Below, in pieces: positions 33,374 to 54,231 of a stretch of DNA of 64,000 bases (the first letter of the stretch is position 1; each line of letters opens with the position of its first letter). Under the pieces are notes generated by a model. The model saw only the letters and a list, made by a program, of their open reading frames with translations. It ran no database searches and had not been told where the DNA came from. The stretch spans positions 32,302,001 through 32,366,000 of the forward strand of contig OX579635.1 in NCBI GenBank assembly GCA_951230915.1, written 5' to 3'. Source of the DNA: Antitrichia curtipendula (lineage: Eukaryota; Streptophyta; Bryopsida; Hypnales; Leucodontaceae). The translations under genes and the position numbers were made by a program.

Positions 33374-34510
33374 TCAATTGTTGAAACGACTTGATCTGCG
33401 GACTTCTTGTGTACTCGGAACCGGTAATGCAGGATTTCGAATTACCACATCATCATCTGCTGGTGCCTCATCACAATCATGGTCGTCTTCATCATCACTG
33501 CCTTCACTAGTTCCACGTTCATCTCCTCCATCGTCACCGTCTATCCAGTGGCCCTCCACTTCCGAGTTATCATTTCGAAGCTCTACAACTATTTCACCCT
33601 GCCTACGATGGCGTTTAAACCTCTTGTATTGTTGAGCTCTAGGGTCCTCCGCGTCAGAATTTATAGTGGGGCCTCCTTGTACTCGAGGAAGTGGAGGAAC
33701 AACATACGCTGGAGTGGACAAAGTTGGTTCTGGAACATACGTATTCAAGAATGGCGCTATCATCACGTTTGGGCGGGGAACCCCAATTCCTCTGAGAGGG
33801 CGTTTAGCAGGCCTAGATGATGACGCTTCGTTGTCGTTTTGTCCACCTCTAATACCACGGCCTCCAATCCCTACACGATCTTCAGTCCCCGCCCGACCCC
33901 TTGCTCCTCCATGGACGGCAGTCCTTCCACGTCCTTGTCGATATTCACCCATGGCGTAGTTTTCTATGGGTCGAGGGGCGGTAGGGGGTCTACCACCCGT
34001 TGTCACATTTGAAATGCTTTGAGGCGTGAATTCAACATTTCCCACTGAGCCTAGCCCTTGTTGGGAAGGTTGACGGTGAGCACTCGAAGTTGCGGAAGAA
34101 GAAGGGTTAAGGGAACCCTGCACCGGTGTATTCCGGTTAGGAAAAATAATACGCACAGCAACTGGTGGGGGTACACGGGCTTCGTCTTCAAGTGGGTCTG
34201 TAAACGCAAAAACATCACTGGGATCTAAACGTTCAGGGTCAAAACGCCTTGCTCCCGCTACAGAAATCCTCGTGACATTTCTTGCAATTGATTGTGCCAT
34301 TCCCGTATTTCCAATGTTCTGGCCATGGCGTCCTTCGACAACTCTATTGCTGTCGCGGCCACCCACTCCTCCGGGCCCCCTACTGCCATCACGATCGCTA
34401 ACAGATCCTTCAGTACTCTGAGTTGCATTGTTCCTCAAATTCCCACCGCCATTTCCATTTCCTCCTTCGTTTTCCAGAGGGAGGTCGTCGTTGTTGTCGG
34501 AGGGAACATT
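33374..34510 (-). pseudogene. 3' part of the outer hAT transposase gene (Gly/Asn-rich tail)
   Basis: The minus-strand frame from 34510 reads NVPSDNNDDLPLENEGGNGN and ends RRSSRFNN at 33374. It is clearly homologous to the tail of the inner hAT transposase (NDDNV...GGNGNGGG...RRSSRLNN). It continues, in frame and across the shared GGAACATT target site, the transposase part at 54231-51844. The inner element therefore interrupts this gene within its low-complexity tail. The tail carries repeated RG-rich parts and acidic blocks (EDDHDCDEAPADDD). The frame extends to 34612 only by accidental reading into the inner element's end. Confidence 0.85.
34503..34510. repeat. 8-bp target-site duplication, left copy
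   Basis: GGAACATT directly before the terminus CAGGG at 34511. An identical GGAACATT directly follows the other terminus at 51844-51851. Eight bases is the standard hAT duplication length. Confidence 0.9.
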
Positions 34511-34664
34511 CAGGGTTGTCATAACGGGCAAGTTAGGATCATCGGATGTCCCAGACGGACGGGCAAACCGGACCGGACGGACGGATGGTCCGGACCAACT
34601 GGACGGCCTCAATTTCTCAAAGTTGTGGAATTTTTTTCAATGACACGTCAGCTTGGACAGCTGG

Positions 34665-35110
34665 ATCCAGGGGCGGGGACTTCTTCAGTCAGGGCGCGGA
34701 CTTTGGCGCGTGAGGGTGCGGACTCCTTCAAGCAAGGCGGAGACATCAGTGTGAGCGTCAGGGCGCGGACTCCTTCATTCACGGCGCGGACTTCAGCGCT
34801 TCAGGGCGCGAACTTCAGCGCTTCAGGGCGCGGACTCATCAAATCAGGGCGGGGACTTCAGTGTGAGCGTCAGGGCGCGGACTCCTTCAAGCAGGGCGCG
34901 GACTTCGGCTAGCAGGGCGCGGACTCCTCGAAGCAGGGCGGGGACTTCTGTGTGACAGTCAGGGCACGGACTTCAGTGCGTCAGGGCACGGACTCCTTCA
35001 AGCAGGGCGGGGACTTCACTGTGACAGGCAGGGCGCGGACTTCAGCGCGTTAGGGCGCGGACTCCTTCAGGTACGGCGCGGACCTGAACGTGAGTGGGAG
35101 GGCGCGGACG
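34665..35110. repeat. GC-rich unit array in the inner left end
   Basis: Irregular tandem units such as CAGGGCGCGGACTCCTTCAA and CAGGGCGGGGACTTCAGTG, many carrying GGACTCC or GGACTTC. It lies between the left terminus and the end of the transposase gene. Confidence 0.85.
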
Positions 35111-35139
35111 GGCAATGGTGGATTAAATTTATGTATTCT

Positions 35140-35141
<2 letters not shown>

Positions 35142-35181
<40 letters not shown>
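35142..35181. repeat. AT dinucleotide microsatellite
   Basis: About 20 AT repeats in a row. Confidence 0.95.
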
Positions 35182-35184
<3 letters not shown>

Positions 35185-35542
35185 AAAAAAAATTCGGAAC
35201 AAATAGGAGACCCCACTGCATTAAAAAGAACCAGTAACTGGAATGTATTTTACATGATTTCCCCACCAAGGTTTCCAGGAGGCCCATCAAATACAAAATA
35301 CACAAAAAAAATACAGGTAGGCTGCAATGTTTGTGATAACCAAAATAGTTTATAAAATTCATGCATTGCAAAGTACAATATCAATACAATGAATCTATAC
35401 TTCCAAAATATGCTCACTTTCTCTGTTTCTCATAGGTTATCCAAAACATTTTTTTGGCTTCTCGTCTATATTTCTTCCAATTGCTACAATTGTCTTCAAC
35501 TCTTAAAGATCCGAGATCTACCATCGATGCAACTCAATAACC

Positions 35543-38500
35543 TCAATTATTCAAACGACTCGACCTACGAACTTCTTGGGCACTTGGATTCGCTGCATTA
35601 GCATCTCGAACAACAACATCATCATCCTCTGGTGCCTCGTCATTGGCATCTTCATTGCTGTCATATTCATCTTCTGCTTCACCATTGTCGGTGGTCCAAT
35701 GTTCCTCAACTTCCGAGTTTTCATTTCGAAGCTCTATAGTTGTTTGGCCATGAGTACGTTTGCGCTTCAACCTCTTGTGTCGTTGTGCGTTGGGGTCTTC
35801 TGCATCAGAATTTATAGTAGGCCCACCTGGAATTGTTCGAACAACAAATGCCGGAGTTGACCGGCTAGGTCCTGGTACGTATGTACTTAGGAACGGTTCT
35901 ATCACCCTATTTGGATCTCTTGCTCCAATTCCGAGGGGTGAACGATTAGCATGCCTTGGCGATGATGCTTCTCCAATATGCAGATCTTCTATTCGTCCTC
36001 GGCCTGTACTCCCTCCACGGCCTGCAGCTCTACCATGACCTCTCGTCCGTCCACGGGCTTGTTGATATTGACCTACTTCATGATGAATGGAGGGCCGAGG
36101 GGCCACAGGTGGTCTACCACGTGAAACTCTTTGCAGAGTCAAATCAACATTTCCCACTGAGCCTAATCCTTCTTGAGAAGGTCTTTGGATGGCATTGGAA
36201 ATTGTTTCTGAAGATGGATCTAGGGAATGTGGCACTTGTGTACCATGTTCAGAAATAGCAGGATGGCCCGCAACTGGAGCCGGTACAGGGGCAATGTCTT
36301 CGGGTGGTTCTACAAAAGCAAAAACATCATCATGGTCCACATGCTCTGGATCAAAAGGCCTTCTCATGTTACCAGCCGGTTGATTTCTTGCAAAAGGGCG
36401 TGGCACTCTTGCATTTCTAACATTTCTATCATGCTGTCTTTCTAGAGCTCTAATGTTACGAGTTGCTGGTTCCACTCCCGTAGGGCGTGTATTGCCATCT
36501 CGATTGTGAGAAGATCCTCCATGATTTGGATTCGCATTCCTCCCCCTGTTTCTCTCGCCATTTTCATGTCCACCGCCATTTCCATTTCCACCGCCATTTC
36601 CGCCGCCATTTCCTGGAGGGAGGTTGTCATCATCGTCGTTGTTGTTGTGGGAAATACCATCATCAACGTTATCGTCATTTGGATTGTCGGTCTCCAAATA
36701 AGACGACAAAGCTGGGACTTCTACAACCCCTTCATTTTGAGGAAGTGGAGGTGAAAGACTACGACGAGGATTTGGTGGTGGTGGTCCCCTACGACCACGA
36801 AGGAGTTCCTCCTCTCCATCATCAGCATCTCCATAGTAGTTCCGCGCTTCTTCGAGGTGATCGGCTCCTTGCCTCTAAAGATCTGGGTTTGCCGGATACT
36901 CTTGAGCTCCTCGGTTGGCTTCCCCATCAACCTCTTCTTCTTCCTCTGATTGCAGTGCGTCAAATTCCCGATTGCGTTCATTCACCGGGATCGGTCCAAG
37001 GGCATCTGGATCAGAATCCTCTGAGTACATATTCGCATCATACCAACGAACTGGATCGGCTCCTGGTCGTTGGTGAAGTACACGGCTATTGGTATAAATA
37101 TATACCAAGGACTCTGCCTTTTTAGGGGCCAATCGATTTCGGATCTTATTGTGAACAAAGGAATACATACTCCAATTCCTTTCACAGGAGCTGGCGGAAC
37201 ACGTGAGGGATAAAACACGCACAGCAATTTTCGAAAGAGCCCGATCTCCAACCCTGTGCCACCATTGGTGGGGAAGCATTTGTGTCGCACGGATGTTGGG
37301 TGTCTCAGCTGGACTGTAGGTTCCAATACCCTCCTCGAATTCTATTAATTCCGCCATCACATCATCAAAATTGACACCCAGGTTCCCCATCATGTTGCGG
37401 ATGACTCTGTACAATGCACGTAGGACAGTTCGATCTTCCCTGAGCGCCACGTTATCCAAGAGGTATGGATTCAAAAGGGCCGCTGCGTAGTGTGTATCTT
37501 CAAAAACCATGTGCCATCTTGCACTGAAAGATTCTTCCAAAATGACTGCTATGTCATCACGTAAGCTGAAAGGTGGTTCTCTTAAAGAAAACACATGCCC
37601 TCGCAAATTGTGCATTACGAGCCACGCCCGACCCATGGCTGCTTCTCGTCCATCAAACACACGCAAAGCCTTCAATACGACTTCAGTCATGTACACGTAA
37701 TTCACATACCGTTGCCAGAAAGCCACATCTTCAATGGTTCTTTTGACATTACATGAAGCGGTAGCTGCTTGCGGTCCATTTTGTTCATTCCTTAGGGTAT
37801 CAAAGAAATTTAGAATACGTGGGTGGTTATTCAACCGCTCCAAGACTCCTCTGAGTTTCACCAATTGCTGCAACATGAGGAAATTACAAGCGAAGCGGGT
37901 TTCGCTAGGCACTACGAGTTGCAGATTCGGACTCAACTCGCGGACAACCGACATGGTCGCATGATGGTTTCGAATGTATTGGCACAATCTTTTTGCCCTG
38001 GCAATTAAATCGGAAAATTCTTGGACTTTGGCCCAGTCTTCCAACATGAGATCTAGTGCATGTGCCATGCAGCCTTGCGCAAAAATATGCGGGTATGTGT
38101 TAGTGATGTCCTTCAATGCGCCAAGCATGTTTGCTGCATTATCTGTGCACAATTGTGTTACATATTTGGGACCCACCTTCTCAATGTACACGTTCATTTG
38201 GTCCGATATGTAGCGCATGGTTTTCTTTTGCGAGGTAGTATCAATTGACCCCAAAAATACATCACCTGTGGGGCATGACATCATCACATTCATGAGGGGT
38301 CTCCGATTGACATCATCCCAACCATCGGTGCATATCGACACCCCGTAGTGCTTGACAGCAAATCCAACCTTCTCTTGAATCTGCTTCTCAATTTGCAACC
38401 TCCTCGGTTCAATCAAATTAGTCCTAAATTGATGGTAAGAAGGTGGACTGTATTCAAACTTCGCCACTGAGGTTGCCCTCACCGCTTCAATGAAGGCTGG

Positions 38501-39055
38501 ATGCCTTGCCACATTAAATGGCACATTCGCTTCATAGAAAAAACTTGCCCACTTCTCATCCAACTCCTTCCTCTTTGCAATGTTGAATGCGTCCGCCATG
38601 CGTTGTTGACGTAATGATCCAGATCTCGTAGAATTGGATCCAGCAAGACTATTTGACATTTGTAGAATATCAATTCCTTCTGAAACGTTTGCCCCTTCTT
38701 CCGCTCTTCCACCATTGATCCCACCCGTCACCTCATTTTCAGTGGCTTCACTTGAACTTGCAAGAGGAGTTGCTCTAGATGGCGCACTTTGAATTGGTTC
38801 TCCTTCATACATGTCCCCGACACCGATTCGTAGCGGGACAAATCCTGCACAATTGGCAAATCTATGTCGCACTGGATGAGGCATACTTCGACAAATTGAC
38901 CTCTCCGATTTGGAGCCATATCCAAAGTGTGCAAAAGCACGCTCACGTTTGTAACTGAAGGTCCCAGCACAGAAAACACAAGTCACTTTAACCCCATTCT
39001 CCGTAAACTGAAGCCACGGCTCCCATTCCTTGGTCTGCTTCCTTTGACTTGCCAT
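35543..39055 (-). CDS. BED/DUF659-type hAT transposase with long tail, one in-frame TAG (inner)
   Basis: The frame is open from ATG 39055 (MASQRKQTKEWEPW) to 36878, then TAG at 36877-36875, then open in the same frame to 35543. The older copy has Trp (NPDLW) where this one has NPDL-stop, so TGG became TAG. Domains: BED-like zinc finger (about 15-65; CVFC, later His and CRS); DUF659/hAT core with GVSICTDGWDDVNRRPLMNV (about 240-260) and QLCTDNAANMLGA (about 300-315), then GCMAHALDLMLEDW; C-terminal hAT dimerisation segment with LTCSASSCERNWSMYSFVHN (about 620-670). After the stop come about 440 codons of Asn/Asp/Gly-rich sequence, RG-rich blocks and a final RRSSRLNN. The first 726 residues are a complete transposase, so this may still be active without its tail. 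Confidence 0.9.
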
Positions 39056-39313
39056 TGCGTTCAACGATCCAAGGATATTTTCTTCCGTCTTCCTCCTCCT
39101 TTATATTGAAGTTAAAAGGATCCAAGATATACCAAACACAGTATCAGTAACAGCAGTTAGCGCTATTCCACTGCTTGAACTGATTTTGACATCACCTCAG
39201 CAGCAAACTAGGGCCATCTGCCACCCAAGTAGACTCACAAGGAGCTCAAAATGAATTGAAGTCCAAGAAATAGAGGCCAGGTGACAAATGTGGGAAATGC
39301 TGGGTCTTCCTTT

Positions 39314-39324
39314 CCTTTATATAC
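39314..39324 (-). promoter_or_regulatory. TATA box of the inner transposase
   Basis: On the minus strand the sequence reads GTATATAAAGG, about 260 bp before the ATG and directly beside the GC-rich array at 39338-39545. The stretch between TATA and ATG (CCATCTGCCACCCAAGTAGA and neighbours) is strongly conserved with the same region of the outer transposase at 54.30-54.47 kb. Confidence 0.7.
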
Positions 39325-39337
39325 TTAGCGGTTTAGG

Positions 39338-39545
39338 GGGCGTGGACGTCTTCGTCACCAAAGTATAGGGCGGGGACTCTAAGTCAGGGCGGGGACTCTA
39401 AGGCGGGGACTCAAAGGCAGGGCGGGGACTTGAAGGCAGGGCGCGGACTCCAGGGCGGGGACTCGAAGGCAGGGCGGGGACTCGAAGACAGGGCGGGGAC
39501 TCCAGGGCGGGGACTCGAACGCGCGGACTCCAGGGCGCGACTCCA
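39338..39545. repeat. GC-rich unit array upstream of the inner transposase
   Basis: Plus-strand units such as AGGGCGGGGACTCGAAGGC and CAGGGCGCGGACTCC. It abuts the TATA box on its upstream side. Confidence 0.9.
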
Positions 39546-39737
39546 GTACAGAAATGCAGGTGTGCTCACGAGGATGCATCGAAAAGTACGTTGACCTTCG
39601 CCATCCTTAATGGTATGGGAAGATTGTGTCCCTCCTTTTCATGGAAAAAAGGGAACATTAAATGTCGTCACGCCCCCAAATTCGTGGGCAAAGAAAATGG
39701 CTTTCACTCCCCAATGTTTTTGCTCAATGGATTGTGC

Positions 39738-39972
39738 TAGGGCGCGGACACAGGGCGCGGACTCCGAGGCGGACAATTCACACAAATGGAGGAACTTGAG
39801 AGAGCGCAGCTCAATCTCAGACTCCATGGAATGGACTCAAAGTCAGGGCGGGGACTTGAAGGCAGGGCGGGGACTCTAGGGCGGGGACTCGAAGGCAGGG
39901 CGCGGACTCCAGGGCGCGGACTCTAGGGCGGGGACTCGAAGGCAGGGCGGGGACTCCAGGGCGGGGACGTAC
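39738..39972. repeat. Second GC-rich array, two blocks
   Basis: Units near 39738-39775 and 39842-39972 of the form GGGCGGGGACTCGAAGGCA. The sequence that follows (AAGCATTAATTTTAGCCTCA...) is repeated after the small GC block at 42508-42550. Confidence 0.85.
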
Positions 39973-40044
39973 TCGTCCAGCCCAGGAAGCATGACTTTGA
40001 AATGCGCTTGTGCTTGACATCCTTCAACCGCCTTTTCCTTAGAG

Positions 40045-40160
40045 CGGGGGAAGCATTAATTTTAGCCTCAACAAATTCTGACAAGACAATGAAAGCAAGA
40101 TGCCGAATAAAGAGCTCCACGGCCTAAGATTTGGAAGAAACTCCATGGAAGAGCATGTCC
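40045..40160. repeat. Direct repeat, copy 1 (partner 42545-42670)
   Basis: Both copies read AAGCATTAATTT, then AGCCTCAACAA, then GACAAGACAATGAAAGCAAG, GAATAAAGAG and GCCTAAGATTTGGAAGAAA, with few differences. Both follow a GC-rich block. Confidence 0.85.
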
Positions 40161-41165
40161 CCTTCGTTGTGATGAAAGGTATTAGGAAAACTCTCCTATC
40201 CCAAGTTTGTGCCATTCATTCGAGGTCGGATCTTTCTCTCTCCTTTTTTTTGGGCTTCATTTCTAGAACTCTCCCATTCCAACTTATTCTAATTTTTTTT
40301 CTTTTGGTTGAATCATTCTTTTTTCTATTTTGTTCCTAAAACTCTTCCATCTCAAATCAAAGCCAAATGTTCATTTTTGGTTCCATCATTCCTTTCCCTA
40401 TTTATTTGGATCATTCCTAAAACTCTCCCATCCCAATTCATATTTTTTGGGTTGTTTTGTTGAATGATCTCCTTTTCTAATTTGTTTTGCTTCAAAACTT
40501 AGCAAGTCTCTTTTGTAGTATTCTTCCAACATCATGCTGATCTTTGTTTGTTGAATCATGCCCTTTCCTACTTCATTTTTGCTTATTTCTTGAAGTTCTA
40601 CCACCTCAATTCAAAGCCATAATTTATTTGTTCCATCATTCTCTTTTTTTTCGTTTTTGTTTCTGCTTCATTTCTAAAATTCTTCCATTCCACCTCAATG
40701 CCCCTTAGTTTTTTTGGCTACATGAACTCCTTAAGCACTTTGTTTTCAACTCAATGCCATTTTATTTTTGTTCCACCATTCCCTTTCCTATTTTGTTTGG
40801 CTTCATTAATTCCTAAAACTCTTTAATTCCAATTGCATGCCAATAGTTATATGTAGAATCATTCAATTTTCTATTTTTATATACATTCCTATTTTTTTCC
40901 TTCTTTAATTCCTAAACTCTTTTATTCCAAGTCTATGCCAATCTTTTTTTATTTAGTCATTCCCTTTCCTATATTTGTTCTTTGCTTCGTTCCAAAAACT
41001 CTTCCATCCTAAATCATTGCCATTCTTGATTTGTTGAATCATTCCCTTTCTTATCACTTTTGCTTCATCCATAAACAAATTCTTCCATCCGAAGTTCCGA
41101 ACTCAATGCCATTTGTTTTTTAATCCATTATTCATATTCCTATTGATTTTTTATTTCATTCTTGT
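40160..41165. repeat. Diverged AT-rich tandem repeats of the inner element (type 1)
   Basis: Loose copies, about 90-100 bp apart, of a phrase like AATCATTCCCTTTCCTATTT, then GCTTCATTCCTAAAACTCTT, then CCATCCCAACTCAATGCCAT. The same phrase is found at 42.9-44.5 and 48.0-49.3 kb. Confidence 0.75.
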
Positions 41166-41712
41166 CTTAGAACAATGAGAAGTTACAAGTTATAGTTTGT
41201 TCTTCATGTAAAGGGATTCATTTTTTGGAATACTTGGCACAAGGGACTCTTTTTTAATTGAATGTACAGTACCCTCCAAGAACTCTTGCAACCCCATGTC
41301 TAGTTCTCATCCGAGTAGTTTGATTACAAATCAAACTCATGGTAGGTAAATTTAGATATTTGATTGAGATTTTTTGCCCCAAACTAGGTGAGTCATGCAC
41401 CTTGTTGTAACTCATTCCACTTCTTAGAAAAATCTTTCTTTGTGAAAGGTGGTTGATTTTGAAAACACTAAGCTAAATTTAAAGGGACAATGCTAATTTG
41501 AAAATTTCATTGTAGAAGATCATAGGTAGTGGATTTCAACCGGTTTTGCAGTTGAGAGGATCAACATTAGTGCATGCATGCTTCTAGTGATTGTTGCTTG
41601 TAGACATAGCCTAGAAGTTTTGTGAGAAAAAATTAATGTTTGTCTAAAATATTGTATATATGATGTTGCTAGAAGTTCTATAAGCAAACTTGTGAAGTTC
41701 TAAGCAATGTTG
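41166..41712. other. Spacer without recognised gene
   Basis: AT-rich sequence between the type 1 repeats and the Tc1/mariner relic. It may include the lost upstream part of that transposase, but nothing in it can be aligned by eye. Confidence 0.3.
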
Positions 41713-41970
41713 GTCAACTTTGCACCATGACATAATGTAAAATTCATTGAGTGGCCACCAAATTCTTTTGACCTTAATCCTATAGAGAATTTATAGAAGC
41801 AAGTCAAAGATCGAGTACAAAAAAGATGTAGATCCTACAACAATGACTAAATGTGGACATTAGTGAATATGGCATGCAAAGATATACCTCAAGAAAGTAT
41901 TCAAAAGTCAATTTCTACGATGCCAAACCAAATCAAAGCTAAGATAGCAGCTCAAGGTGGTAGTACTTGA
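41713..41970 (+). pseudogene. Tc1/mariner-type transposase C-terminal relic
   Basis: One plus-strand frame reads VNFAP-stop-HNVKFIEWPP, then NSFDLNPIENL-stop-KQVKDRV, then, after another stop, IPQESIQKSISTMPNQIKA. WPPxSxDLNPIENLW is the signature of the third catalytic region of Tc1-like transposases, and the W after IENL has become TAG. The segment lies in the spacer of the inner hAT element. Only about 85 codons are recognisable. Confidence 0.75.
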
Positions 41971-42507
41971 TGGTAGTAGGTGTAACACTTTGTTGCAAAG
42001 TCGTTGCTAGTCAGCGAGACATACTGTAAAATTCATGATATAGTAGGCTTCTACAATACCATAGCTTCCTAATGATATCCTATTTGACAATATTTATTCA
42101 AATGTTTTTGAATACATGACCTTTGCCTTGAACATGTATAAAAGGAAATTGTAAAATACATTAAAGCCAAATAGACAAAAAATTTACCTACATAGTGTGC
42201 ATCTTTGTAATATGAAAGATGTGAACAATGATGTTTCCTAAATATATACGCAATCAGATCTTAAAAAATCATCGTACACATTTTCTAATTAATTATTATA
42301 TAATATCGTGAAAAATAAATAAAATAATTCACCAAAAATGGAGTTTCTATTTTTAGACATTGAAATTTCATATGTTGGTGAAGGTTACATAAAGCAATAG
42401 ATTTAATAGGATACTTTTCATAGTATGTTCTTAAAATGGAGTTAAAAAGGAAAATTTGAAGGACTTCATAATGGGGTTGCAGGACTTTTTGGAGGGTACT
42501 ATACAAT

Positions 42508-42670
42508 AGGGCGGGGACTCCATGGTGGGGACTTCAAATAAAGGTGGGAAGCATTAATTTAGCCTCAACAACTTATTTTGGATTCTGACAAGACAATGAA
42601 AGCAAGATGCTGAATAAAGAGGTCCATGGCCTAAGATTTGGAAGAAAATCCATGGAAGAGGATGTTTCCT
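42508..42670. repeat. Small GC block plus direct repeat, copy 2
   Basis: GGGCGGGGACTCCATGGTGG at 42508, followed by the direct repeat described at 40045-40160. This module is about 2.5 kb downstream of its partner. Confidence 0.8.
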
Positions 42671-42939
42671 TTGTTGTGGTGAGAAATGTTTTTCCTTACT
42701 TCTTCTAACACTTCAAACTACTTTGAACAAACATATCATTTAGGTTGTAAAAAACAATGTAAATTCTTTGATTTAGGAAATGTTTAGGACACTTTGAGGA
42801 AATATTTAGTAAATGTTTAATCAATATTTTTGAAATGTAGTGTACTAGATAAAAGGATAAAACTACATTGTATTTGAAATGAAAGAAATAGTAGGGGAGT
42901 TATTTAAAATTCTAGGCCTTCAATATGCAACTGCAATTT

Positions 42940-44480
42940 TTAATTCCATCATTTCCTTTCCTAATTTTTTGGGTTTCATTCCTAAAAGTCTTCCATTCTA
43001 AGTCACTGTCCTTTTTTGGGGGGCATCATTCCCTTTCCTATTTTTTTCCAGGAATTAGCACAGGTCTCCCATCCCGACTTGTCAATTGTATGGCATTCTT
43101 TTTGGGTTGGATCATTTTGTCTTCTTTTTCTGTAGATGCTTCATTCGTAAGACTCTCCCATCCCAAATTATATTTAATTTTTTTGGTTTAGTTGAATCAT
43201 TCCTTTTTCTATTTTGTTCCTAACAATCTTCCATCCCAATTTTCAATTCATCTTTTTTTGTTGAATCATTTCCATCTCTATTTTGTTTTCGCTTATTTCC
43301 TGAAGTTCTCCCACCCCAAGTCCCCAACTCAAAGACACCATTTTTTTCTTCATTAATTCATAGAACTCTTTTATGTGAACTCCATGCCAATATTTATTCA
43401 TCCAACTCACTTCCTTTCCTATTTTTTTTCTTCATTAATTCCTAAAATTGTTTAATCCAACGGTAAGCATTTTTTTTTTGCTTATTTCCTTTCCTATTTG
43501 TTTTATTTATTAGCACAATTATTCCATCCTAAGGGATTCCCTAAATTTTTTTCTTTATGGTACGAAATTGAAGTCTATCCATTCACTTCCCATTTTTCAT
43601 ATGACATAAGAGGTAATGTGAAACAATATTTGTTTCATATTTCTTTCACATTTGTTTGTTTTTATTAGCAACATTTAAAATGCACTTACATTTCTTTCCC
43701 TTCCTAATCTTTGTAAAATTCATTAGCAAAATGCCAAAATGTCTCCATTCCATCATGAGCCCGAAGGCCATTTAAATAATTTAATTTTTGTATTACCTAA
43801 GCCCTTCTTATTTTTTGTTAGTGATTTGCAAGATTATTGTATCCCAAATAGATGCCTTTTTTTTGGGTATATCATTTACTTCCTAATTTTATTTGAACTT
43901 CATTTGCAACATTATCCCATGCCATCCCAATGGCCAATGCCCTTTATTTTTTGTATATCATTCCCTTTCCTATTTCTTTGGGATTCATTCCCTTATCAAA
44001 TGTTTCTTGGGATTCATTCCCTTTCCTTTTTGGGGGGGATTCTTTCCCTTTCCTAATTTTTTGGATTCATTTCTTTTCCAATTTTTTTTAGATTGATTAG
44101 CAAAATTGTTACATCCCAAGTTATATAAAAACTAAATGGCATTATTATTCTCTTCCTAATTTTTCTCCAACTCAATGCCAATTTTTGGCATTCAGTTTAC
44201 CTTCCTACTTTTTTTGGGCTTCATTAGCAAAATTGCTCCATCTAAAATTCTCAATCAAAGACCATTTAAATTTTGTATTCTCTAAACCCATTCTAATTTT
44301 TTTGGGCTTCATTTGTCACGTTATTCTATCCCAACTAAATGCCATTCATTTTTAAGTAGGTAATTACTTCCCTATTTTTTGCTTTTCTCTATCATTCCTT
44401 TGCCTATTTTGCAAGTGAATTTTTACCTATTTCAATCCCTTTTGGGGGGGAGTTCCATCATTCCTTTGCATATATATATT
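42940..44480. repeat. Diverged AT-rich tandem repeats (type 1), second block
   Basis: Many copies of CATTCCCTTTCCTATTTTTT with GCTTCATT and CCATCCCAA phrases. It lies immediately downstream of the RING gene. No open frame of interest. Confidence 0.75.
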
Positions 44481-44891
44481 TCCATCAAGGCATTAATGAC
44501 ATTTGAAAAGCGTTTTTTCCCCTAATTTCAAGTTCGGGCCACTTCGTGCCTTCGTGGTCCGTCCAACCTTCCCTACTTCTATTCATTGAGTGGAAATTGG
44601 GAATGAATTGTACTCCAATTCAATGACATTTCATTTCATGGTATAAATAATTTTAATATGTATGAAGTCCACAAGTCCATTCAAATTTCAAATGAGTACG
44701 TGCAAAAAATAAATGAAGTCACTTTGGGCAAAATCATTCAAAACAAAATCAAATATATTTCATATGCATAGTGTAATACAAAGTAGGAAAGTATATAAGC
44801 CTATATAATATTATAGTGCTAGGAAAATAAGTCTTCTAAGAAAACCTAAGTTCACTAGCTAAAACACTCAAAACTATATTCAAAACTATAC

Positions 44892-47186
44892 TTAGTCCAT
44901 GTTCATTGGACTACTTGCACTGCCACTTGGTCCAGCCTCATTGTCATGTGTCCCGGCGCGAATTGGAAGGTCTTCATCTGTTCCCAAACGAAGCCTACGA
45001 ACTGCGGATCGAGTTCTCCTCGCTGGTCCGTCTTCCTCTAAAAGAGCCTTCAATATTTGTGATTGCTTGAGGCTTTGAAGACATTGGAGAGTTCCCGGGC
45101 TATGTTGTTCCAACAAGAAGTCCATCCCATCATTTCGAAAGGTTTCTCGCCACTCTGACTCCGATAGTTGTGCAAGTTCAGCAGGGTCTGGCATGTCAAT
45201 GTCTTCCCCCCTCCGCATCCCCTGATCGTCAGGAATGCAAACTCCATCAACGCCCCACAACCATCCAAGAGGATGAGGTCCAAATTGGAAGTATTCTTGT
45301 GCCTCATTCCAATGCCCATTGAAGCATTGGAAGAAGAAATTCCGTCGTCCTTGGCTAAAGTTGTCCTTCAATGGAACCAAGTGGTGGCACACCTCCACAA
45401 TTTGAGCCGGATCTTTTTCCCAACTCCATTCGGTACAAAGTTGTTGTTTGCCCAACGAATGGATGTTCAATTTCCAACTCCACACCAAGTCTGTTCCCCA
45501 CTTCTGAGAATGATCAGGGGCATTTTCAGCATTGAATTCCCAATGCGGTGGCATGTAGGGAACTAATCCAAACAACTCATACAAGCGCTTATGGAAAGGA
45601 GCCTTGCATAGTGAACAACGTCGGCGGACAATCATCAAGCTAATTAGGCAGAATGGGTGGTACAAATGTTCACACGTGCCTAAGTGCATTCCACCTTCCG
45701 GGCCAAATGGATTAAGGCAAATGGGATATGTAGTTCCATCGTGTACGAAGGTTGAAGGGTTTGGCCACAGTAGTAATGGATTGCCTTCATGGTCCATGGC
45801 AGAGCCAACTTCATTCTTGAAATCCCAATCATATTTGGACCAGTCGATGGTTGTTTGTCCACCAGCAATGTCAATGGTTGCCATTTCATCCATGTTGAAA
45901 TGATCATCCACTAGGGCCCACGATGTCAAACCAAAAACCCTCTCTTGATTGTGTGCGCCGTAATTGTGGTCAATTTTTTTGAATTCCTCCACCATTTGCC
46001 TAGTCTTGTCAATATTGAAGACACATGCCAGCTTCCATTGGTAATACTGCTCCATCAATGCATGCAATTGATTTTTCAATGTCAAATTCATTGCAAGCGC
46101 GTCCGTCAGTTGGATGCTTTGGTCCACTGGCCCTGCTGCACCTACATTTGCGGGTAATTCTCCAAAGGACAAAGAATCATCCTGAGTATCCATTGTTGCA
46201 CCAACTTCTGTAGGTTCCAATGGAATTTGAGAATTATTTGAAGGCCCTTGCGCTTCTCCTCGTGGATCTTGACCACGATTGGCCAATGTTGCTGCCTCAA
46301 GAGCGTGCCGAAGTACCTCCATCTCACGTTGTTGTTGATTGATAATGTTGTCCTTCTCTTGCATGTCTTCTCTCATTTTGTTAACATCATTATACAAAGA
46401 ATACAATTCCTCATTCTTCTCATTCACTTCAATCAACAAACCCTGGATTCGGTTTGTAGCAGCTGTAACATCCACAATTCCTACCACTGGTTCATCAATA
46501 GGTGGCACCTGTTCCTCCACAACATTTTCGTGTAAAACCTCAACAGTTTGACGCGAAGCCCTCCTCTTTTTAGCTCGTAGTTGAGTTCTATGGCTGACTA
46601 CAACTGGTACACGAGATCCATCTGAGTCGTCGTCCGTAGATGAGTCTTCAGTGTCATATCTTCGTGGTGCTTGAACCTGCGTATTTGTTTTCCCTAGACC
46701 ACCTTCCGGGTATCTTTTTACCCCCCTTGGAATGAATCCATTTGCTGGAGTAGGAATATTGACATTTTCTCCTATTTGCTTCAAAGTTGACCAATCCACT
46801 CTCTTGTTCAACTTCAGCTCCGCATAGACCCCTCGTGCAAGGAAAAGTTGCACTTCATTGCGTATGACGTTTGAGAGAGCATACAACACTTGGTACACCT
46901 CAATGCATCGGTTTGTAAACTCTTTGTCTAGGCAGTATTTTAAATTTGCCTTGTGGAAGCGTCTGTGACAGTTATGTCGCTCTTCCGGGAACAACTTGTC
47001 TATGCGGCACCACTCAATGTAATTGGCGCAGTCATCATATGTCCATGGTTCAAGCACGCCCTCCCACCCCCTGAATGCAAGCTTGTCAGGGTTTCGTAGA
47101 ACATGTAGTCGCTTGCGATGTTTGTTTCCGGCTCGTGGTCGGGTCCTATCTCGTTCTTCCTTGGTCATTCTTGGTGGTGTATCCAT
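44892..47186 (-). CDS. Coiled-coil RING-finger protein, cargo of the inner element
   Basis: The true start is ATG 47186 (MDTPPRMTKEERD); the frame is open further upstream but without ATG. Length is 764 residues, one exon. Order: a Lys/Arg-rich head; a conserved globular part (WTYDDCANYIEWCRIDKLFP); an acidic linker with a DDDSDG block; a predicted coiled coil at about 244-300; a Trp-rich region; a RING-H2-like finger at about 486-527 (YPIC...CEHLYHPFC...CSLC); and a tail with RRTRSAVRRLRL. The first zinc ligand is Tyr (TYPIC) where the outer copy has Cys (MCPIC), so zinc binding and ubiquitin-ligase activity may be impaired. The role is inferred only from the domain. It has the same strand and position relative to the transposase in both elements. 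Confidence 0.85.
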   Translation of the reverse strand: MDTPPRMTKEERDRTRPRAGNKHRKRLHVLRNPDKLAFRGWEGVLEPWTYDDCANYIEWCRIDKLFPEERHNCHRRFHKANLKYCLDKEFTNRCIEVYQVLYALSNVIRNEVQLFLARGVYAELKLNKRVDWSTLKQIGENVNIPTPANGFIPRGVKRYPEGGLGKTNTQVQAPRRYDTEDSSTDDDSDGSRVPVVVSHRTQLRAKKRRASRQTVEVLHENVVEEQVPPIDEPVVGIVDVTAATNRIQGLLIEVNEKNEELYSLYNDVNKMREDMQEKDNIINQQQREMEVLRHALEAATLANRGQDPRGEAQGPSNNSQIPLEPTEVGATMDTQDDSLSFGELPANVGAAGPVDQSIQLTDALAMNLTLKNQLHALMEQYYQWKLACVFNIDKTRQMVEEFKKIDHNYGAHNQERVFGLTSWALVDDHFNMDEMATIDIAGGQTTIDWSKYDWDFKNEVGSAMDHEGNPLLLWPNPSTFVHDGTTYPICLNPFGPEGGMHLGTCEHLYHPFCLISLMIVRRRCSLCKAPFHKRLYELFGLVPYMPPHWEFNAENAPDHSQKWGTDLVWSWKLNIHSLGKQQLCTEWSWEKDPAQIVEVCHHLVPLKDNFSQGRRNFFFQCFNGHWNEAQEYFQFGPHPLGWLWGVDGVCIPDDQGMRRGEDIDMPDPAELAQLSESEWRETFRNDGMDFLLEQHSPGTLQCLQSLKQSQILKALLEEDGPARRTRSAVRRLRLGTDEDLPIRAGTHDNEAGPSGSASSPMNMD

Positions 47187-47284
47187 TTTTGTAGGAAAAA
47201 GCGAAATCCTCCACGTGGCAATCAAGTAGACCCCGCACAACGCTCACAACCAGCTCAATGAAGAGATAGAAGGCTGAGAGTAAG

Positions 47285-47590
47285 CAGGGCGGGGACAAAT
47301 GAGGCGGGGACGGCCTTATATAGTTGCAGCTGGGGGACGCCAGGGCGGGGACTCCATCGAGTTGGGGCGGGGACTCCTCCGAGTGGGGGCGGGGACTCCA
47401 TCGAGTGGAGGCGGGGACTCCTCCGTGTGGGGGCGGGGACTCCAGACAGTGGGGACGGGGACTCCAGACAGTGGGGGCGGGGACTCCAGAGAGTGGGACT
47501 GGGACTCCAGAGAGTGGGGCAGGGACTCCAGAGAGTGGGTCGGGGACTCCAGAGAGTGGGGCGGGGACTCCAGAGAGTGGGCGCGGACAT
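47285..47590. repeat. GC-rich unit array upstream of the RING gene
   Basis: Plus-strand units of about 17-26 bp such as GGGGCGGGGACTCCAGAGAG and GGGCGGGGACTCCATCGAGT. About 12 units lie beyond the TATA box and two between TATA and the start. Confidence 0.9.
47314..47323 (-). promoter_or_regulatory. TATA box of the inner RING gene
   Basis: Minus-strand CTATATAAGG about 130 bp before ATG 47186, embedded between GC-rich units. Confidence 0.7.
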
Positions 47591-49320
47591 GATTTAAATA
47601 TACGAAGTTAATGTGCTTAGACATATTTCCATTTCCTAAGGTAGAAGGCTCGAAAAGAGTTTTGGCATTAAGAACTGCCCCTATAAGTGGTTGTAGAATG
47701 GACATGATGCAGTTTTCAAATTGACCTCAAAAGACAAAAAGGAAGGAAGGAAAAAAACATTCTTTATCACAAGAGCCAATCATTGTCTTTGCTATCCCCA
47801 TTTTTCTTTAAAATTGCAATATGAAGGACGTAAGAATATAAATAGGGACCTAGGACACATCTCCTTTGAAAATTTATAATTAATTCAATAATGTTTAAAA
47901 AAATATGAAACCGATTGGGCTACATTCCTCATCAATTTTTCTTGGTTTCAAGGATGAGCTTAAAAATATTCCCATGTAAAGAAATACTGTAGAAATGCGA
48001 ACCAGCCCTTAGATGAGTGATTTCTGAGCCTTCTACATTACTCCATGTTCTAAGTGACTCTAGCAGTCCATATTGAGATTTAATGTTAGATCATATCACT
48101 CTAACACCCCAATAATTTCCATATCCTAATCAATCCACCATTCCATATTTTTTTTGGGTGTTAAATTGCTTCATTATAAGTTTGTAACCCCCAAACCACT
48201 TCCATGTCCAAATCACTCCACTATTCCATAGATTTTTTGGATGTTACATTATTTTATAGTGACACCCAAATCATTTCCATATAAGAAAGCACTCCACCAT
48301 TCATATTTCTTTTAATGTTAGATTATTTAAGTCCGTAAAAATAATTCCCCCGCTAAAAATCCTAAAATAAATTGGTATGCTTTTCTAAAGCTTTGGTCAC
48401 TCCATCTCCCCTTTTAGACATTGATTTTTAAAGCACACTTCCATTTCAAGTGATTGCCATAATTTTTCTGGTGTTTTCATTCTCTTCCCTATTTTGTGGG
48501 CATCATTACCAAAAAAAATTATTTGAATTCAATGCCACTTGTGTAAGGTGGAATGATTTTTTTTTCCCGCTATTAGCAAAATTATTCCATCCCAACTCGA
48601 GGCCATTTATTTTTGAATGATCATTCCTATTAATTTCATTTTTTGCTTTTATTAGCCAAGCTCTTTCATCTAAAGGAAATTCCATTTACCTTTTTGTGGT
48701 AACGCAAATCTATCCAAACTAAATGGTAAATTTTTTGGGGTGTTAGTTGAAATCACTTTGACACACTATTTTTTGTGGGTCTATGTCTCTCACAAAATTA
48801 TTCCATACCAACCCCAAGCCATTTCGGATTTGTTCCATGATTTCCTTTCCTATTTTTTTTTTCATTAATGAACAAAGGAGTTCCCATGCCAACTCTATGC
48901 CATTCCTTTTGGCTTGGATGATTATCTTTTTTTGTTCGCTTCATTCCTAAAACTCTCCCATCCCAACTCATAGTTATTTTTTTTTTTTTTGTTCAAACAT
49001 TCCATTTTCTATTTTGTTTTCGTTCATTAAGTGAGAAGACTATTTTATTCGAATTCATAGTTTAGCTTTATTTGTTCAATCTTTCCTTTCCCTACTTTAT
49101 TTTTTTCTAATTTACTAAAGTTCTTCCACCTCAACTCAAAGCCATTAATCTTATTTTTGGGTTCCATCATTCCCTTTCCTTTTTTTTTTTTCGTTTTATA
49201 ATTTTTAATTTTTTTGAACCTTTTTTTGTGTTCATGATTAAAATTATCCCAATGTACTTCAATGTTATTCTTTTTTTTGTTGGATCATTTATTTTATTTT
49301 GGGGGGGCTTCATTAACTTC
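47591..49320. repeat. AT-rich spacer with type 1 repeats
   Basis: After about 400 bp without features, the type 1 phrases (CCATCCCAA, CATTCCCTTTCCTATTT, GCTTCATTCCTAAAACTCTC) recur from about 48030 to 49320 between the RING and kinase genes. No gene seen. Confidence 0.65.
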
Positions 49321-49629
49321 TAAAACTGTAAAACATAGACATAGTGAAAAGATAAAGTGTATGTATTTTTATACCAAACTATTGCATTCACTATTTTTAT
49401 AAAAGTTTTATCATCAATTCATAGAACTCATAAACATGCAATGAGAAAGAACAATGACATAGCAGGTTAATATATTCACATGAGATTTTGAATGTACAAT
49501 GCATCTGACTTCATATATATTTGAGGTATTCGGCAATTGCGAAGTACATACACATGGTCCTCTATGAGGATGATTTACCTTCTATGCCTGAACTATATGC
49601 TAAGCTACAAAAAGTAAAAAAACTAAATA
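49321..49629. other. Short AT-rich stretch downstream of the kinase gene
   Basis: Nothing recognised; it would hold the kinase terminator and 3' untranslated region. Confidence 0.3.
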
Positions 49630-51210
49630 CTATATACGATAACAACATTCTGGCATAGTCCAACAGTGGGGGGCCTTCTTCAATGCGTCGAGAACATCTG
49701 GCACTGACGCCCTTTCACTCACATCCTCTTTTACGAGGCTTTCCAATTTGATCCTGAGGTTCTGATATTGCTCTGGATTCTTCGTTGTAAAGTATTTGGA
49801 GTCCCACTCTTCCTTCCAAATTTGTGCTGCTATCCATCCGGCTGCATATGCATCAGCTGCCATGGAATATAAATGCATTTTTTGCATGGCCTCAATTGAA
49901 TTTGCCGAACCTTGCTCTCCGTATATATAAAACAATTCAGGGGCTGCAAACCTTCGCATTCTCTTCTCCTTCACTAGGATGTCCTTGTTGGGAAAGCCAT
50001 ACCTTGACGGCTCCTTCTCTACAGCTCGGCTAGAAAGTCCCCAATCACATATCCCTATATACACCGTGTGCTCTTTATAATCATCAAAATGGAGCAAAAT
50101 ATTGGATGGAGTGATGTCGTTGTGCATGTACTGCGCATCGTGGCATTTCCCCACAATGACAAGCAAAGAGAGTGCCAAGTTCACTCGGTTCCGTCGGTAA
50201 GTTGCAACCCATGTAAGCTCCTCTTTTGTCAACCCTGTACCTTGTTCATGCTTAATCTCATCGACATCCAATGTTTCGCTTACTTTCGAATTGTATTTGG
50301 ATAAGAAAGAAATTAGAGAGCCTCCATTCCACCATAACGTGTAGCCTTCCATCGTTTTAGGGTGGAGGTACGCAATTCGAATGATGCCAGGATGTCTCAC
50401 TGGACACCCGCCCGCCTCATTGATGATTCCTTGGCGCTTCTCCTTTTCATTCGTGGTTTTCAAGCTCTTCCCAGCAAAAAATATCCAACTAGGAATGCTC
50501 TGAAGTTTTGTAAGCATCACCTTCCTCACGGTCCCATATGAACCAACGGCACTCTGTTCCGGCATGGGGATGACTTTTACTGAACTTTCAAGCCACTTGA
50601 ATGTTCCACTAACACAATGAGCTGTTATGGTGTCTTCAATTGTCGCTTTCCAAGGTGCTTGCTTTTTCTTACGTGATGAAGAAAATTGTTGAGCAAAGTT
50701 TTGAATGATTTTTAACTTTGCAACCACCTCTTTATTTTGTGTGTCCCAATCGCTACCATCTTCTTTCTTCCCCATGTGGTAACACCAATTTGACACTATA
50801 TTGGTTGTGAAGGCAACCACCTGTTTATCCAGCCAGTCTTGGTGCAACCAATAATTGGAGAAATTGTTGAATTTCTCAGATGCTTCAAACTTTGACTCCA
50901 GCTCCGTTTGCAGGTCCCTCGTGAGTTTGTGGTACCCTTCTTCGTTGAGCGCCACATACTCCCTGGTCAACATAGTCGTACTGCGACGAGTGTAGAACAC
51001 CACAACTATTGCTCTCCCTTCAACTATGAATTCATGTGGAGGCATATGGGGATTGAGTGCTTTCTTGCGTTTCTTTTGGCTTGATGAAGAAGGGTTCGAT
51101 GAACCTGAGGCCATCAAGTTGTCCGTGGATGGAATTACCATCTCACCGACATCATCTAAATCTACAAACATAGGACGTTTCTCCGCCGATGCACTCCCTT
51201 CCCCCGCCAT
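49630..51210 (-). CDS. Protein kinase, cargo of the inner element
   Basis: ATG 51210 (MAGEGSASAEKRP) gives 526 residues in one exon; the frame is open upstream but only by non-ATG codons. The first 220 residues contain a Ser-rich basic stretch (SSSSQKKRKK) and an unknown helical region. The kinase domain (about 222-515) has VGSYGTVRKV as glycine loop, a Lys in FFAGKSLK, MHNDITPSNILLHF as catalytic loop (HND instead of HRD), ICDWGLS in place of DFG, and AAPELF as the APE motif. Catalytic Lys and both Asp are present, so activity is plausible. I cannot place it in a named plant kinase family. A GC-rich array and TATA box precede it, as for the other cargo genes. It is the gene nearest the right terminus. 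Confidence 0.85.
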   Translation of the reverse strand: MAGEGSASAEKRPMFVDLDDVGEMVIPSTDNLMASGSSNPSSSSQKKRKKALNPHMPPHEFIVEGRAIVVVFYTRRSTTMLTREYVALNEEGYHKLTRDLQTELESKFEASEKFNNFSNYWLHQDWLDKQVVAFTTNIVSNWCYHMGKKEDGSDWDTQNKEVVAKLKIIQNFAQQFSSSRKKKQAPWKATIEDTITAHCVSGTFKWLESSVKVIPMPEQSAVGSYGTVRKVMLTKLQSIPSWIFFAGKSLKTTNEKEKRQGIINEAGGCPVRHPGIIRIAYLHPKTMEGYTLWWNGGSLISFLSKYNSKVSETLDVDEIKHEQGTGLTKEELTWVATYRRNRVNLALSLLVIVGKCHDAQYMHNDITPSNILLHFDDYKEHTVYIGICDWGLSSRAVEKEPSRYGFPNKDILVKEKRMRRFAAPELFYIYGEQGSANSIEAMQKMHLYSMAADAYAAGWIAAQIWKEEWDSKYFTTKNPEQYQNLRIKLESLVKEDVSERASVPDVLDALKKAPHCWTMPECCYRI

Positions 51211-51349
51211 AACGAAAAGAAATTGTTCAATGGGCCTCTGCAAGCACAAAAGCCCCGAAAATTTGAAAAAAACCGGGTCACATATGAGGGCCAAGCCCAC
51301 CACCCACCAAACTCACTCACATAGGCCGTGGGGACGAACTAGTGTGTGA

Positions 51350-51700
51350 GGCGTAGGGCGCGGACTTGGCAAAGAAATGAGGGCGGGGACTCGCTTTATA
51401 TAGTTCCCCCGCTCCTCAAGTACTCGCCCCGACACGTGCCGTCCACGCCCCGTCTTCCTCACGTTCCCGCCCCAGTCGCTGGAGTCCCCGCCCCCACGCA
51501 GGAGTCCCCGCCCCACTCTCTGGAGTCCCCGCCCCCTCTCACTGGAGTCCCCGCCCCCCACTCACTGGAGTCCCCGCCCCCACTCACTGGAGTCCCCGCC
51601 CCCACTGTCTGGAGTCCCCGCCCCTACTGGATGGAGTCCCTGCCCCCACTCAATGGAGTCCCCGCCCTGACTTTGGAGTCCCCGCCCTGCATGTTCCTAA
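51350..51700. repeat. GC-rich unit array upstream of the kinase gene
   Basis: Plus-strand units such as CACTCACTGGAGTCCCCGCC and TGGAGTCCCCGCCCCCACT: the same unit as at 47.3-47.6 kb but in reverse orientation on the plus strand. About 10 units lie beyond the TATA box, and one or two between it and the gene. Confidence 0.9.
51394..51403 (-). promoter_or_regulatory. TATA box of the kinase gene
   Basis: Minus-strand CTATATAAAG about 185 bp before ATG 51210, directly beside the GC-rich array. Confidence 0.7.
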
Positions 51701-51764
51701 ATCCACGTGGCGTCCACGTGGCCTACTTTTTTGGTTTTATAAAATCAACTTTGTGTTGACTGTA

Positions 51765-51843
51765 TCGGGCGGGTGAGACCTCTAACGGACGTCCCGGACG
51801 GACGGACGGGCGAACCGGACGTCCGTACAGTATGACAACCATG
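51765..51843 (-). repeat. Right terminal and subterminal region of the inner element
   Basis: Read inward on the minus strand it starts CATGGTTGTCATACTG, then GGACGTCC and CCGTCCGTCCGTCC repeats, then a CCCGCCCGATACAG box. The first 13 bases match the left end with one difference. Confidence 0.85.
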
Positions 51844-51851
51844 GGAACATT
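51844..51851. repeat. 8-bp target-site duplication, right copy
   Basis: GGAACATT, identical to 34503-34510. Confidence 0.9.
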
Positions 51852-54231
51852 ATCATCATTGACGTCCACTGCGTCCGCGCCATCACTCTCCGAAGACGAT
51901 GACAAAGGCTGCACTTCCGGAACGACTGGATTTTGAGGGACAGGGGGGGGGGCCCCAAGGGCCCCAACGACCAGGGAGAACTTCCTCTTCCACTTCATCA
52001 TCATCTCCGTAGTAATTTCTAGCTTCCTCGAGGTGATCGGCCCCTGCCCTCCACAAGTCTGGATTTGGTTGGTACTCTCCAGGTGCTTGGTTTGCTTCCA
52101 CATCAGCGTCTTCCTCTTCTTCAACTGCCAGCACGTCAAATTCACGATTGCGTTCACCCACCGGAACGGGGCCAAGGGCATCCAGATCAGAATCCTCCGA
52201 TAAGATATTAGCATCGTACCAACGAACCGGATCGGCCCCTGGTCTCTGCTGAAGTACACGGCTATTGGTATAGATATATACCAATGACTCAGCCTTCTCG
52301 GGGGCTAACCGATTCCGGACCTTGTTGTGGACAAAGGAATACATACTCCAATTCCTTTCACATGAGCATGCTGAACATGTCAATGATAGAATACGCACGG
52401 CAATCTTTGATAGTGCTCGATTTCCAACTCTGTGCCACCATTGGTGGGGAAGCATATTTGTCGCTCGGATGTCGGGTGTCTCAGCAACACTATATGGCCC
52501 TGTGCCCTCCTCGAATTCTGTTAATTCCGCCATCACGACGTTGAACTGTACACCCACTACATTTTCCATTTTGCGGATGACGTGATATAATGCACGGAGG
52601 GCAATTCCATCAGCCCTAAGCGCCACGTTATCCAAGAGATACGGATTTAAAAGGGCCCCGGCGTAGTGAACATCCGAAAAGACCATGTTCTACCTTGTTT
52701 CGAAAGACTCCTCCATGATGGTGGCTATGTCATCTCGTAGGTTGAAGGGTGGCTCTCTTAAAGAAAACACATGGGCTCTCAAATTATGCATTACGAGCCA
52801 CGCCCGACCCATAGCTGGTTCTCGGCCATCAAATATGCGCAATGCCCTCAACATGTCTTCAATCATGTGCAAGTAATTCACACATCGTTGCCAAAAGCCC
52901 ACATCTGTGATAGTTGACACCACATTACCTGCAGCCGTAGCTGCTTGCTCCCCATTTTGTCTGTTTCGCAGACCAGCAAAGTAATTTTGAACGCGTGGAT
53001 GGTCTTTTGATCGCACGATTACTCCTCGAAGTTTCTCCAGTCAGTGCATCATGAGGAAATTACAAGCAAAGCGGGTTTCATTTGGCACTACGAGCTGAAG
53101 GCTCGGACTCAACTCCCGGAAAACAGACATGGTCGCGTGATGGTTCCGAATGTACTGGCACAATCTTTTTGCCCGAGCAATTAAATCTTGGAATTCTTTT
53201 ATTTTGGCCCAATCTTCCAACATGAGATCCAAGGCATGTGCCATGCAGCCTTGTTTGAAAATGTGCGGGTACGTGTGAATGATATTGTCCACTGCCCCAA
53301 GCATGTTTGCTGCATTATCCGTACAAACTTGCGTGACGTGTTTCGGACCCACTTTCTCAATGAATACTTTCATCTGGTCTGATATATAGCGCATGGACTT
53401 CCTTTGTCCGGTAGTGTCAATGGCCCCCAAAAATACATCACCAGAAGGGCACGACATCATCACATTCATTAGGGGCCTCCGGTTCACGTCATCCCAGCCA
53501 TCAGTGCATATTGTCACCCCGTAATGCTTCACTGCAAAACCAACTTTGGTTTCGATTTACTTCTCAATCTGCAACCTCTTGGGTTCAATAAACTTAGTCC
53601 TGAACTGATGATAAGAAGGTGGACTGTATTCAAACCTTGCCACTGAGGTTGCCCTCACAGCCTCAATAAAGGCTGGATTTCTTGCCACATTAAATGGCAC
53701 GTTTGCCTCATAAAAAAACGATGCCCACTTGTCATCTAACTCTTTCCTCTTTGCAATGTTAAAAGCATCCTGCATGCGTTGCTGAAGTAATGTCCCAGAT
53801 CTCGTGGAATTTGATGCAGCGAGACTTTGAGACCTCTCTATTGGATCATTCCCTTCATGGAGAGTAGCCCCTTCAGCCTGGTTCCTACCGGGGCCTCCTG
53901 CCGTCACTTCATTCTGAGCGGATTGGCTTGAACTTGCGACTGGAGTTGCTCTTGATGGACCACTGGGAATTGATTCTCCTTCGTATATGTCCTCGGGGCT
54001 CAATCGTTGCGGGATAAAGTTTGCACAATTTGCAAATCGGTGGCGTACAGGTCGCGGCGCACTATGACAAATTGACCTCTTGGACTTTGCGCCATACCCA
54101 AAGTGAGCAAAAGCACGCTCGCGTTTATAGCTGAATGTCGCATTGCAGAAAACACAGCTGACTTTACTCCCATTCTCAGAGAAATTATACCATGGTTCCC
54201 ATTCTTTTGTTTGCTTTCGTTGACTTCCCAT
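51844..54231 (-). pseudogene. 5' part of the outer hAT transposase, three nonsense codons and a frameshift
   Basis: It starts at ATG 54231 (MGSQRKQTKEWEPW) and is homologous throughout to the inner transposase: BED finger (CVFC), ICTDGWDDVNRRPLMNV, CTDNAANMLGA, LTCSACSCERNWSMYSFVHN. Breaks are TAA 53559-53557 (Gln in the inner copy), TGA 53043-53041, TAG 52692-52690 (Trp in the inner copy) and a frameshift at the run of ten G near 51943-51952. After that the correct frame resumes (QNPVVPEVQPLSSSSESDG) and reaches the inner-element insertion site in VNDDNVP. The gene continues at 34510-33374. The damage agrees with this being the older copy. Confidence 0.88.

Follow-up and report, generated by a model that had tools for sequence, protein, structure and literature searches.

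A stretch of 64,000 nucleotides from Antitrichia curtipendula (assembly GCA_951230915.1, contig OX579635.1, positions 32,302,001 to 32,366,000 of the forward strand; hereafter the window) was found to contain, at window positions 34511-51843, a transposon of the hAT superfamily that carries genes for a coiled-coil RING protein and a protein kinase beside its transposase. There is strong support for a hAT family of large units that is present in many copies and has RING and kinase genes inside its ends. The element is read here, with a probability of roughly 0.78, as a giant three-gene cut-and-paste hAT transposon in which the RING protein and the kinase would serve as accessory factors.

The inverted ends of the element, which begin with CAG and CAT, match at 12 of 13 bp, and an exact 8-bp target duplication lies on both sides. 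The left junction reads GGAACATT followed by CAGGGTTGTCATA, and the right junction, read on the opposite strand, AATGTTCC followed by CATGGTTGTCATA. Terminal inverted repeats of hAT elements are typically 5-27 bp long and often start with CAG or TAG. The minus strand of the element holds the kinase, coiled-coil RING and hAT transposase genes. An earlier note on this DNA had described 13-bp inverted ends, an 8-bp duplication on either side and these three genes on one strand; the duplication and the shared minus strand were recovered as described, and the ends with one mismatch. The features of the element, called the inner element because a second one surrounds it, are as follows.

34511..51843, genes on minus strand: inner giant hAT element, 17,333 bp, with both ends and 8-bp duplication; ends recur genome-wide
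34511..34523, plus strand: left terminal inverted repeat CAGGGTTGTCATA, identical or near-identical in 30 end pairs
51831..51843, minus strand: CATGGTTGTCATA, terminal inverted repeat of the right end, differing from the left repeat at one base; the 29-base right-end pattern recurs
34503..34510, unstranded: target-site duplication GGAACATT, left copy
51844..51851, unstranded: target-site duplication GGAACATT, right copy
49630..51312, minus strand: protein kinase gene, 560-aa (amino acid) open frame, first ATG at 51210 giving 526 aa; Pkinase 1.9e-9; 78 copies scored
44892..47243, minus strand: coiled-coil RING-H2 gene, 783-aa open frame, first ATG at 47186 giving 764 aa; 57 copies scored
36875..39100, minus strand: hAT transposase, main part, 741 aa, stop at 36875-36877; DUF659 1.8e-36, Dimer_Tnp_hAT 1.2e-8
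35543..36874, minus strand: transposase C-terminal tail, 443 aa, severed by the stop in the window copy
51442..51694, unstranded: GC-rich array upstream of the kinase gene, unit of about 22 bp containing GGAGTCCCCGCCC
47343..47602, unstranded: like array upstream of the RING gene (seen in the window)
39360..39990, unstranded: like array upstream of the transposase gene
34670..35100, unstranded: like array 3' of the transposase gene, towards the left end (seen in the window)

Copies of the family in the assembly

The assembly to which the window belongs (400 Mb, 303 contigs) was searched with the ends and the three genes. A 29-base pattern from the right end, allowing up to 3 mismatches, gave 169 matches in the whole assembly and 0 for the control, and 100 of the 169 were listed and used for pairing. 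For the left end, the first 170 bases were used and the best 40 of 189 candidates were scored. A listed right end was found for 31 of the 40 left ends, 30 of them lying 13,851-21,286 bp from their partner (median 17,702) and one of them 795 bp; the other nine were without a partner among the 100 right ends listed, which may reflect that listing.

The junctions were read in 30 of the 31 pairs, that is, 29 large units and the short one. Target duplications were exact in 22, matched at 7 of 8 positions in 6 and were absent in 2, and their sequences varied from locus to locus. When the flanks of different loci were paired as a control, a match of 7/8 or better occurred in 1 of 870 combinations, and when the positions were shifted outward by 8, 10 or 12 bases, no duplication was found in any of the 30. 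These findings show that units of 14-21 kb have moved whole, as copies with both ends and locus-specific duplications. The steps themselves are attributed to the transposase by analogy with the hAT family: it would recognise the short inverted ends, excise the whole 17-kb unit and insert it with an 8-bp target duplication. In hAT elements excision runs through hairpins in the flanking DNA. The 795-bp unit (contig C9, 19129718-19130512) has both family ends and an exact 8-bp duplication and is a short non-autonomous derivative.

The gene content of the other copies was taken from the listed gene matches between paired ends, and these matches comprised the best 60 of 1785 first-look candidates for the transposase, 57 of 2397 for the RING gene and 78 of 1452 for the kinase, so that contents per unit and neighbour counts are lower bounds among the matches listed. 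Counted in this way, at least 7 of the 30 large units hold all three genes, at least 21 two or more and at least 28 one or more, with none listed for 2 units and no listed gene on the wrong strand. A RING gene lies downstream of the kinase gene, on the same strand and within 30 kb, in at least 42 of 78 cases, 39 of these 42 at 3.6-4.1 kb; a transposase gene lies downstream of the RING gene in at least 29 of 57 (8.1-9.2 kb away in 19, 5.6-5.8 kb in 8 and more in 2) and downstream of the kinase gene in at least 38 of 78. Opposite-strand neighbours within 30 kb were seen in 4 of 78 cases for kinase and RING, and in 0 for the other two gene pairs. The distance from the right end to the kinase gene was 392-628 bp in 72 pairs. 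The giant hAT family with RING and kinase genes that the earlier note had proposed was thus found at other loci with the same ends, gene order and strand. The two main classes of RING-transposase spacing, 5.6-5.8 kb (8/29) and 8.1-9.2 kb (19/29), agree with units of about 14.9 and 17.7 kb.

The mean synonymous distance was 0.022 among 30 kinase copies and 0.020 among 30 transposase copies. Since these distances are near 0.02, the kinase and transposase copies have spread recently.

No evidence for a plant host came from the 18S searches of the assembly: a land-plant 18S pattern matched nowhere at up to 3 mismatches, and the single match of a broader pattern for the 3' part of 18S, on contig C36, is of animal/fungal type and may stem from contamination. 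A search for the Wnt family gave 0 matches, with none in the control genomes either, so that it does not speak for an absence.

The three proteins and the repeat arrays

The window transposase matched PF04937 (DUF659, 1.8e-36) and the dimerisation region PF05699 (1.2e-8, above cut-off). The tail at 35543-36874 most likely belongs to the same protein, because an open frame of at least 1000 aa was reported in 50 of the 60 scored copies (counted by eye) and a length of 1007-1206 aa was found for 17 of the 34 relatives in the databases. The motifs TDGW, CTDNAAN and CERNWS were kept in 30, 26 and 30 of 30 copies, respectively, and TDGW, TDN and CERNWS are taken by us to hold the acidic catalytic residues of a hAT transposase. 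A BED-type zinc finger is expected at the N terminus of hAT transposases; Pfam gave none there at E 0.1, and a single ad hoc pattern matched 0 of 30 copies.

The RING protein has the spacing of a RING-H2 finger, and its long helices would fit coiled coils; its N-terminal region is conserved. Its Pfam RING matches fell below cut-off (best 5.3e-4 for the inner copy and 7.4e-5 for the outer copy described below), and by profile RING finger protein 24 was the best match with a solved structure (E 7e-8). In the inner copy a tyrosine replaces the first RING cysteine, which is kept in the outer copy and in the nearest database relative. Judged by this lost cysteine and the stop in its transposase, the window copy is damaged, and it is probably no longer self-sufficient.

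The predicted kinase model had a mean predicted local distance difference test score (pLDDT) of 80 and many matches to solved kinases in PDB (best E 5e-9), spread over many kinase groups, and four kinase motifs were kept in 29-30 of 30 copies. In the databases, 27 relatives of the kinase were listed, along with 31 of the RING protein and 34 of the transposase, mostly on short contigs with uninformative names; key positions were invariant or nearly so among 22 aligned kinase relatives and 24 aligned RING relatives. Phage records gave no match to the kinase, and no kinase or RING relative was confirmed in viral contigs. One close kinase relative (74%) carries the label of a Bacilli metagenome bin and is probably eukaryotic contamination.

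Each gene is preceded by an array of a GC-rich repeat of about 19-22 bp with the core GGGGACT or AGTCCCC and close forms, and 56 of the 67 cores in the window fall within the inner element. Within 1500 bp upstream, all 30 kinase copies had 5-13 cores, compared with 0-1 downstream. The transposase copies had 10-35 cores upstream in 30 of 30, with 0-1 downstream in 29 and 8 in one. The array upstream of the RING gene was seen in the window copy. Because matching arrays lie upstream of all three genes, they may reflect shared regulation or be candidate protein-binding sites.

In the interval between the RING and transposase genes, 35-nt inverted repeats (89% complementary, 1.2 kb between) were observed at 41263-42505; since TA occurs near both edges, a nested insertion of mariner/pogo type is suggested.

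The interrupted outer element and constraint between subfamilies

The gene interrupted by the inner element was found to be a second, diverged copy of the hAT transposase gene (blastn 78% over 2523 bp, 51959-54453). The tail of this outer transposase is 64% identical to the inner tail at 33142-34250 (blastn), and the outer RING gene is 72% identical to the inner one at the DNA level (blastn, 60336-61961). The features of the outer element are as follows.

32255..32267, plus strand: outer left terminal repeat CAGGGTTGTCATA; matches the inner left end at 84% over 74 bp
33374..34502, minus strand: tail of the outer transposase on the left side of the insertion; 64% identical to the inner one (blastn)
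51883..54351 (51883-52689, 53041-53556 and 53557-54351), minus strand: outer transposase pieces, interrupted by the inner element; blastn 78%
60338..62203, minus strand: outer RING gene, 621-aa open frame that lacks the N-terminal part (lost or out of frame) and retains the first RING cysteine

When the inner element and one duplication were removed, joining only the window flanks, an open frame of 529 codons ran across the junction; in the presence of the inner element it meets a stop 42 codons beyond the junction. The target gene with a restorable frame that the earlier note had described therefore stands as to the frame, and the target is a diverged hAT copy, not an ordinary host gene. The outer transposase reads through where the inner copy stops, and appears to shift frame at a run of G shortly ahead of the junction, damage that is separate from the insertion. 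Because the insertion lies in a second copy of the transposase gene, the window holds one family member inserted in another, diverged one. The outer right end was not found within the 64 kb of the window.

Between the inner and outer copies, the RING gene showed dS 1.32 and dN 0.256 (synonymous and nonsynonymous divergence, respectively), a dN/dS of approximately 0.19 over 599 codons, and the three transposase pieces gave approximately 0.19, 0.09 and 0.18. These ratios indicate that the RING and transposase proteins have been under long-term constraint between the two subfamilies. The RING gene has travelled with the transposase since before the split of the two subfamilies of the window, and the kinase is linked to both in the younger one. 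Among recent copies (30 each), the kinase had a pooled ratio of 0.395 and the transposase one of 0.559. Nonsynonymous and synonymous variants numbered 31/28 for the kinase and 38/26 for the transposase when shared by at least two copies, compared with 90/51 and 188/87, respectively, when found in a single copy.

Accessory genes, competing explanations and known systems

The RING protein, as a ubiquitin ligase, and the kinase, as a signalling enzyme, could aid transposition or weaken host control, and it is most likely that they act for the element in one of these ways. This accessory role is preferred because the genes recur with the transposase, the RING gene has long been constrained and other transposons carry anti-silencing proteins. 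The earlier note had called the element cargo-bearing; extra genes do lie inside the ends, and since the same genes recur from copy to copy among the matches listed, the term accessory genes seems to fit better than variable cargo.

Several results weigh against the accessory reading. Stops occur in 12 of 30 kinase copies, 35 of 57 RING copies (counted by eye) and 11 of 30 transposase copies, and 2 of the 30 end pairs lack a target duplication. The pooled ratios of the recent copies come from hits taken in order of protein similarity, a ranking that prefers copies with few amino-acid changes; the lower ratio of nonsynonymous to synonymous variants in shared than in single-copy variants may point towards constraint. 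Linkage of the kinase was seen for the younger subfamily only, the outer kinase position lying beyond the window. A search for the outer right end joined to the left flank CAGAAAGA gave no match at up to 1 mismatch, so that either the duplication was lost, the end differs or the flank has changed. Finally, the accessory role of the RING protein and the kinase is inferred.

The stops in kinase and RING copies would also be expected if both were host genes that were captured once and have since been passengers that do nothing for the transposon. Capture of genes by DNA transposons is well known, and the functions of the two proteins are putative; this explanation is nevertheless considered improbable, as the RING gene is constrained between subfamilies (dN/dS approximately 0.19 at dS 1.3), key positions are near-invariant among the aligned relatives of both proteins and similar arrays precede the genes. 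A benefit to the host, such as Starship cargo can bring, through which the transposon would persist, is in keeping with the stop-free frames of 18 of 30 kinase and 22 of 57 RING copies (the latter by eye). It is judged very unlikely, since the 169 right-end matches, the locus-specific duplications and the short non-autonomous derivative look like ordinary selfish spread, and no other gene content was seen among the listed gene matches. Spread of the units by segmental duplication or by a neighbouring element, with the hAT ends incidental, could account for a few equal-score matches that lie in inverted pairs on one contig (for example on C1 and C4). In contrast, 28 of 30 end pairs have their own duplication at the ends within different flanks, at a cross-locus rate of 1/870, which refutes this explanation for those 28 loci and leaves it a negligible probability overall.

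The accessory reading can be extended, tentatively and with the odds somewhat against it, to an old and widespread three-gene hAT lineage whose ubiquitin ligase and kinase would act on host silencing, repair or cell cycle, with the arrays as shared control sites. If so, a cut-and-paste transposon would carry a set of host-directed regulators much as viruses do, and the relatives of all three proteins in public data would be parts of the same element. The findings suggest that hAT-class transposons can carry a set of helper genes, and the two recurring extra genes provide specific proteins for study. Should they promote movement or help to escape silencing, a eukaryotic transposon of the cut-and-paste kind would possess tools for ubiquitin and phosphorylation of its own.

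Typical hAT elements such as Ac, hobo, Tam3 and Tol2 are a few kb long and have one gene. The element shares with them the 8-bp duplication, the short ends starting with CA and the hAT dimerisation region with DUF659, and differs in its 17-kb length, two recurring extra genes and the array before each gene. No hAT element with RING and kinase genes was found in the open-licence literature searched. Large DNA transposons with extra genes are described from other superfamilies (PMC6431247); such an enlarged family resembles the present one in its extra reading frames and differs in superfamily. ToxhAT, an approximately 14-kb unit of wheat-infecting fungi (PMC6737239, PMC12506042), is linked to a hAT-like transposase, carries other genes and is mobile in one species, which it has in common with the present element. 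ToxhAT differs in its 74-bp terminal inverted repeats (PMC6737239) compared with 13 bp here, in being a composite of at least two transposons with most annotated instances fragments, and in its genes (ToxA, patatin-type and transporter genes, compared with RING and kinase).

The VANC proteins of VANDAL elements are not known to be kinases or RING proteins. VANDAL/Hiun elements encode VANC as anti-silencing proteins (PMC10398659, PMC5735166, PMC6446971); an accessory gene beside the transposase that acts for the element could serve as a model for the RING and kinase genes, and VANDAL/Hiun differ in being Mutator-like. Starships (PMC12134995, PMC12289983) are fungal, use a tyrosine recombinase and carry up to hundreds of accessory genes. 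They are likewise large transposons with extra genes. They are moved by a captain tyrosine recombinase, whereas the recombinase gene found between the ends here is the hAT transposase (Pfam), with two recurring extra genes. Starship cargo varies between copies; among the matches listed here the same genes occur in the same order.

Elsewhere in the window, long open frames at 30445-31440 (plus strand, 331 aa) and 1199-3271 (minus strand, 690 aa) had no Pfam match at E 0.1. Similar-looking reading frames on the plus strand at 9751-12640 and 20053-24706, the latter including a DNA methylase match (PF01555, 1.2e-6), seem to represent some other gene or element that is repeated.

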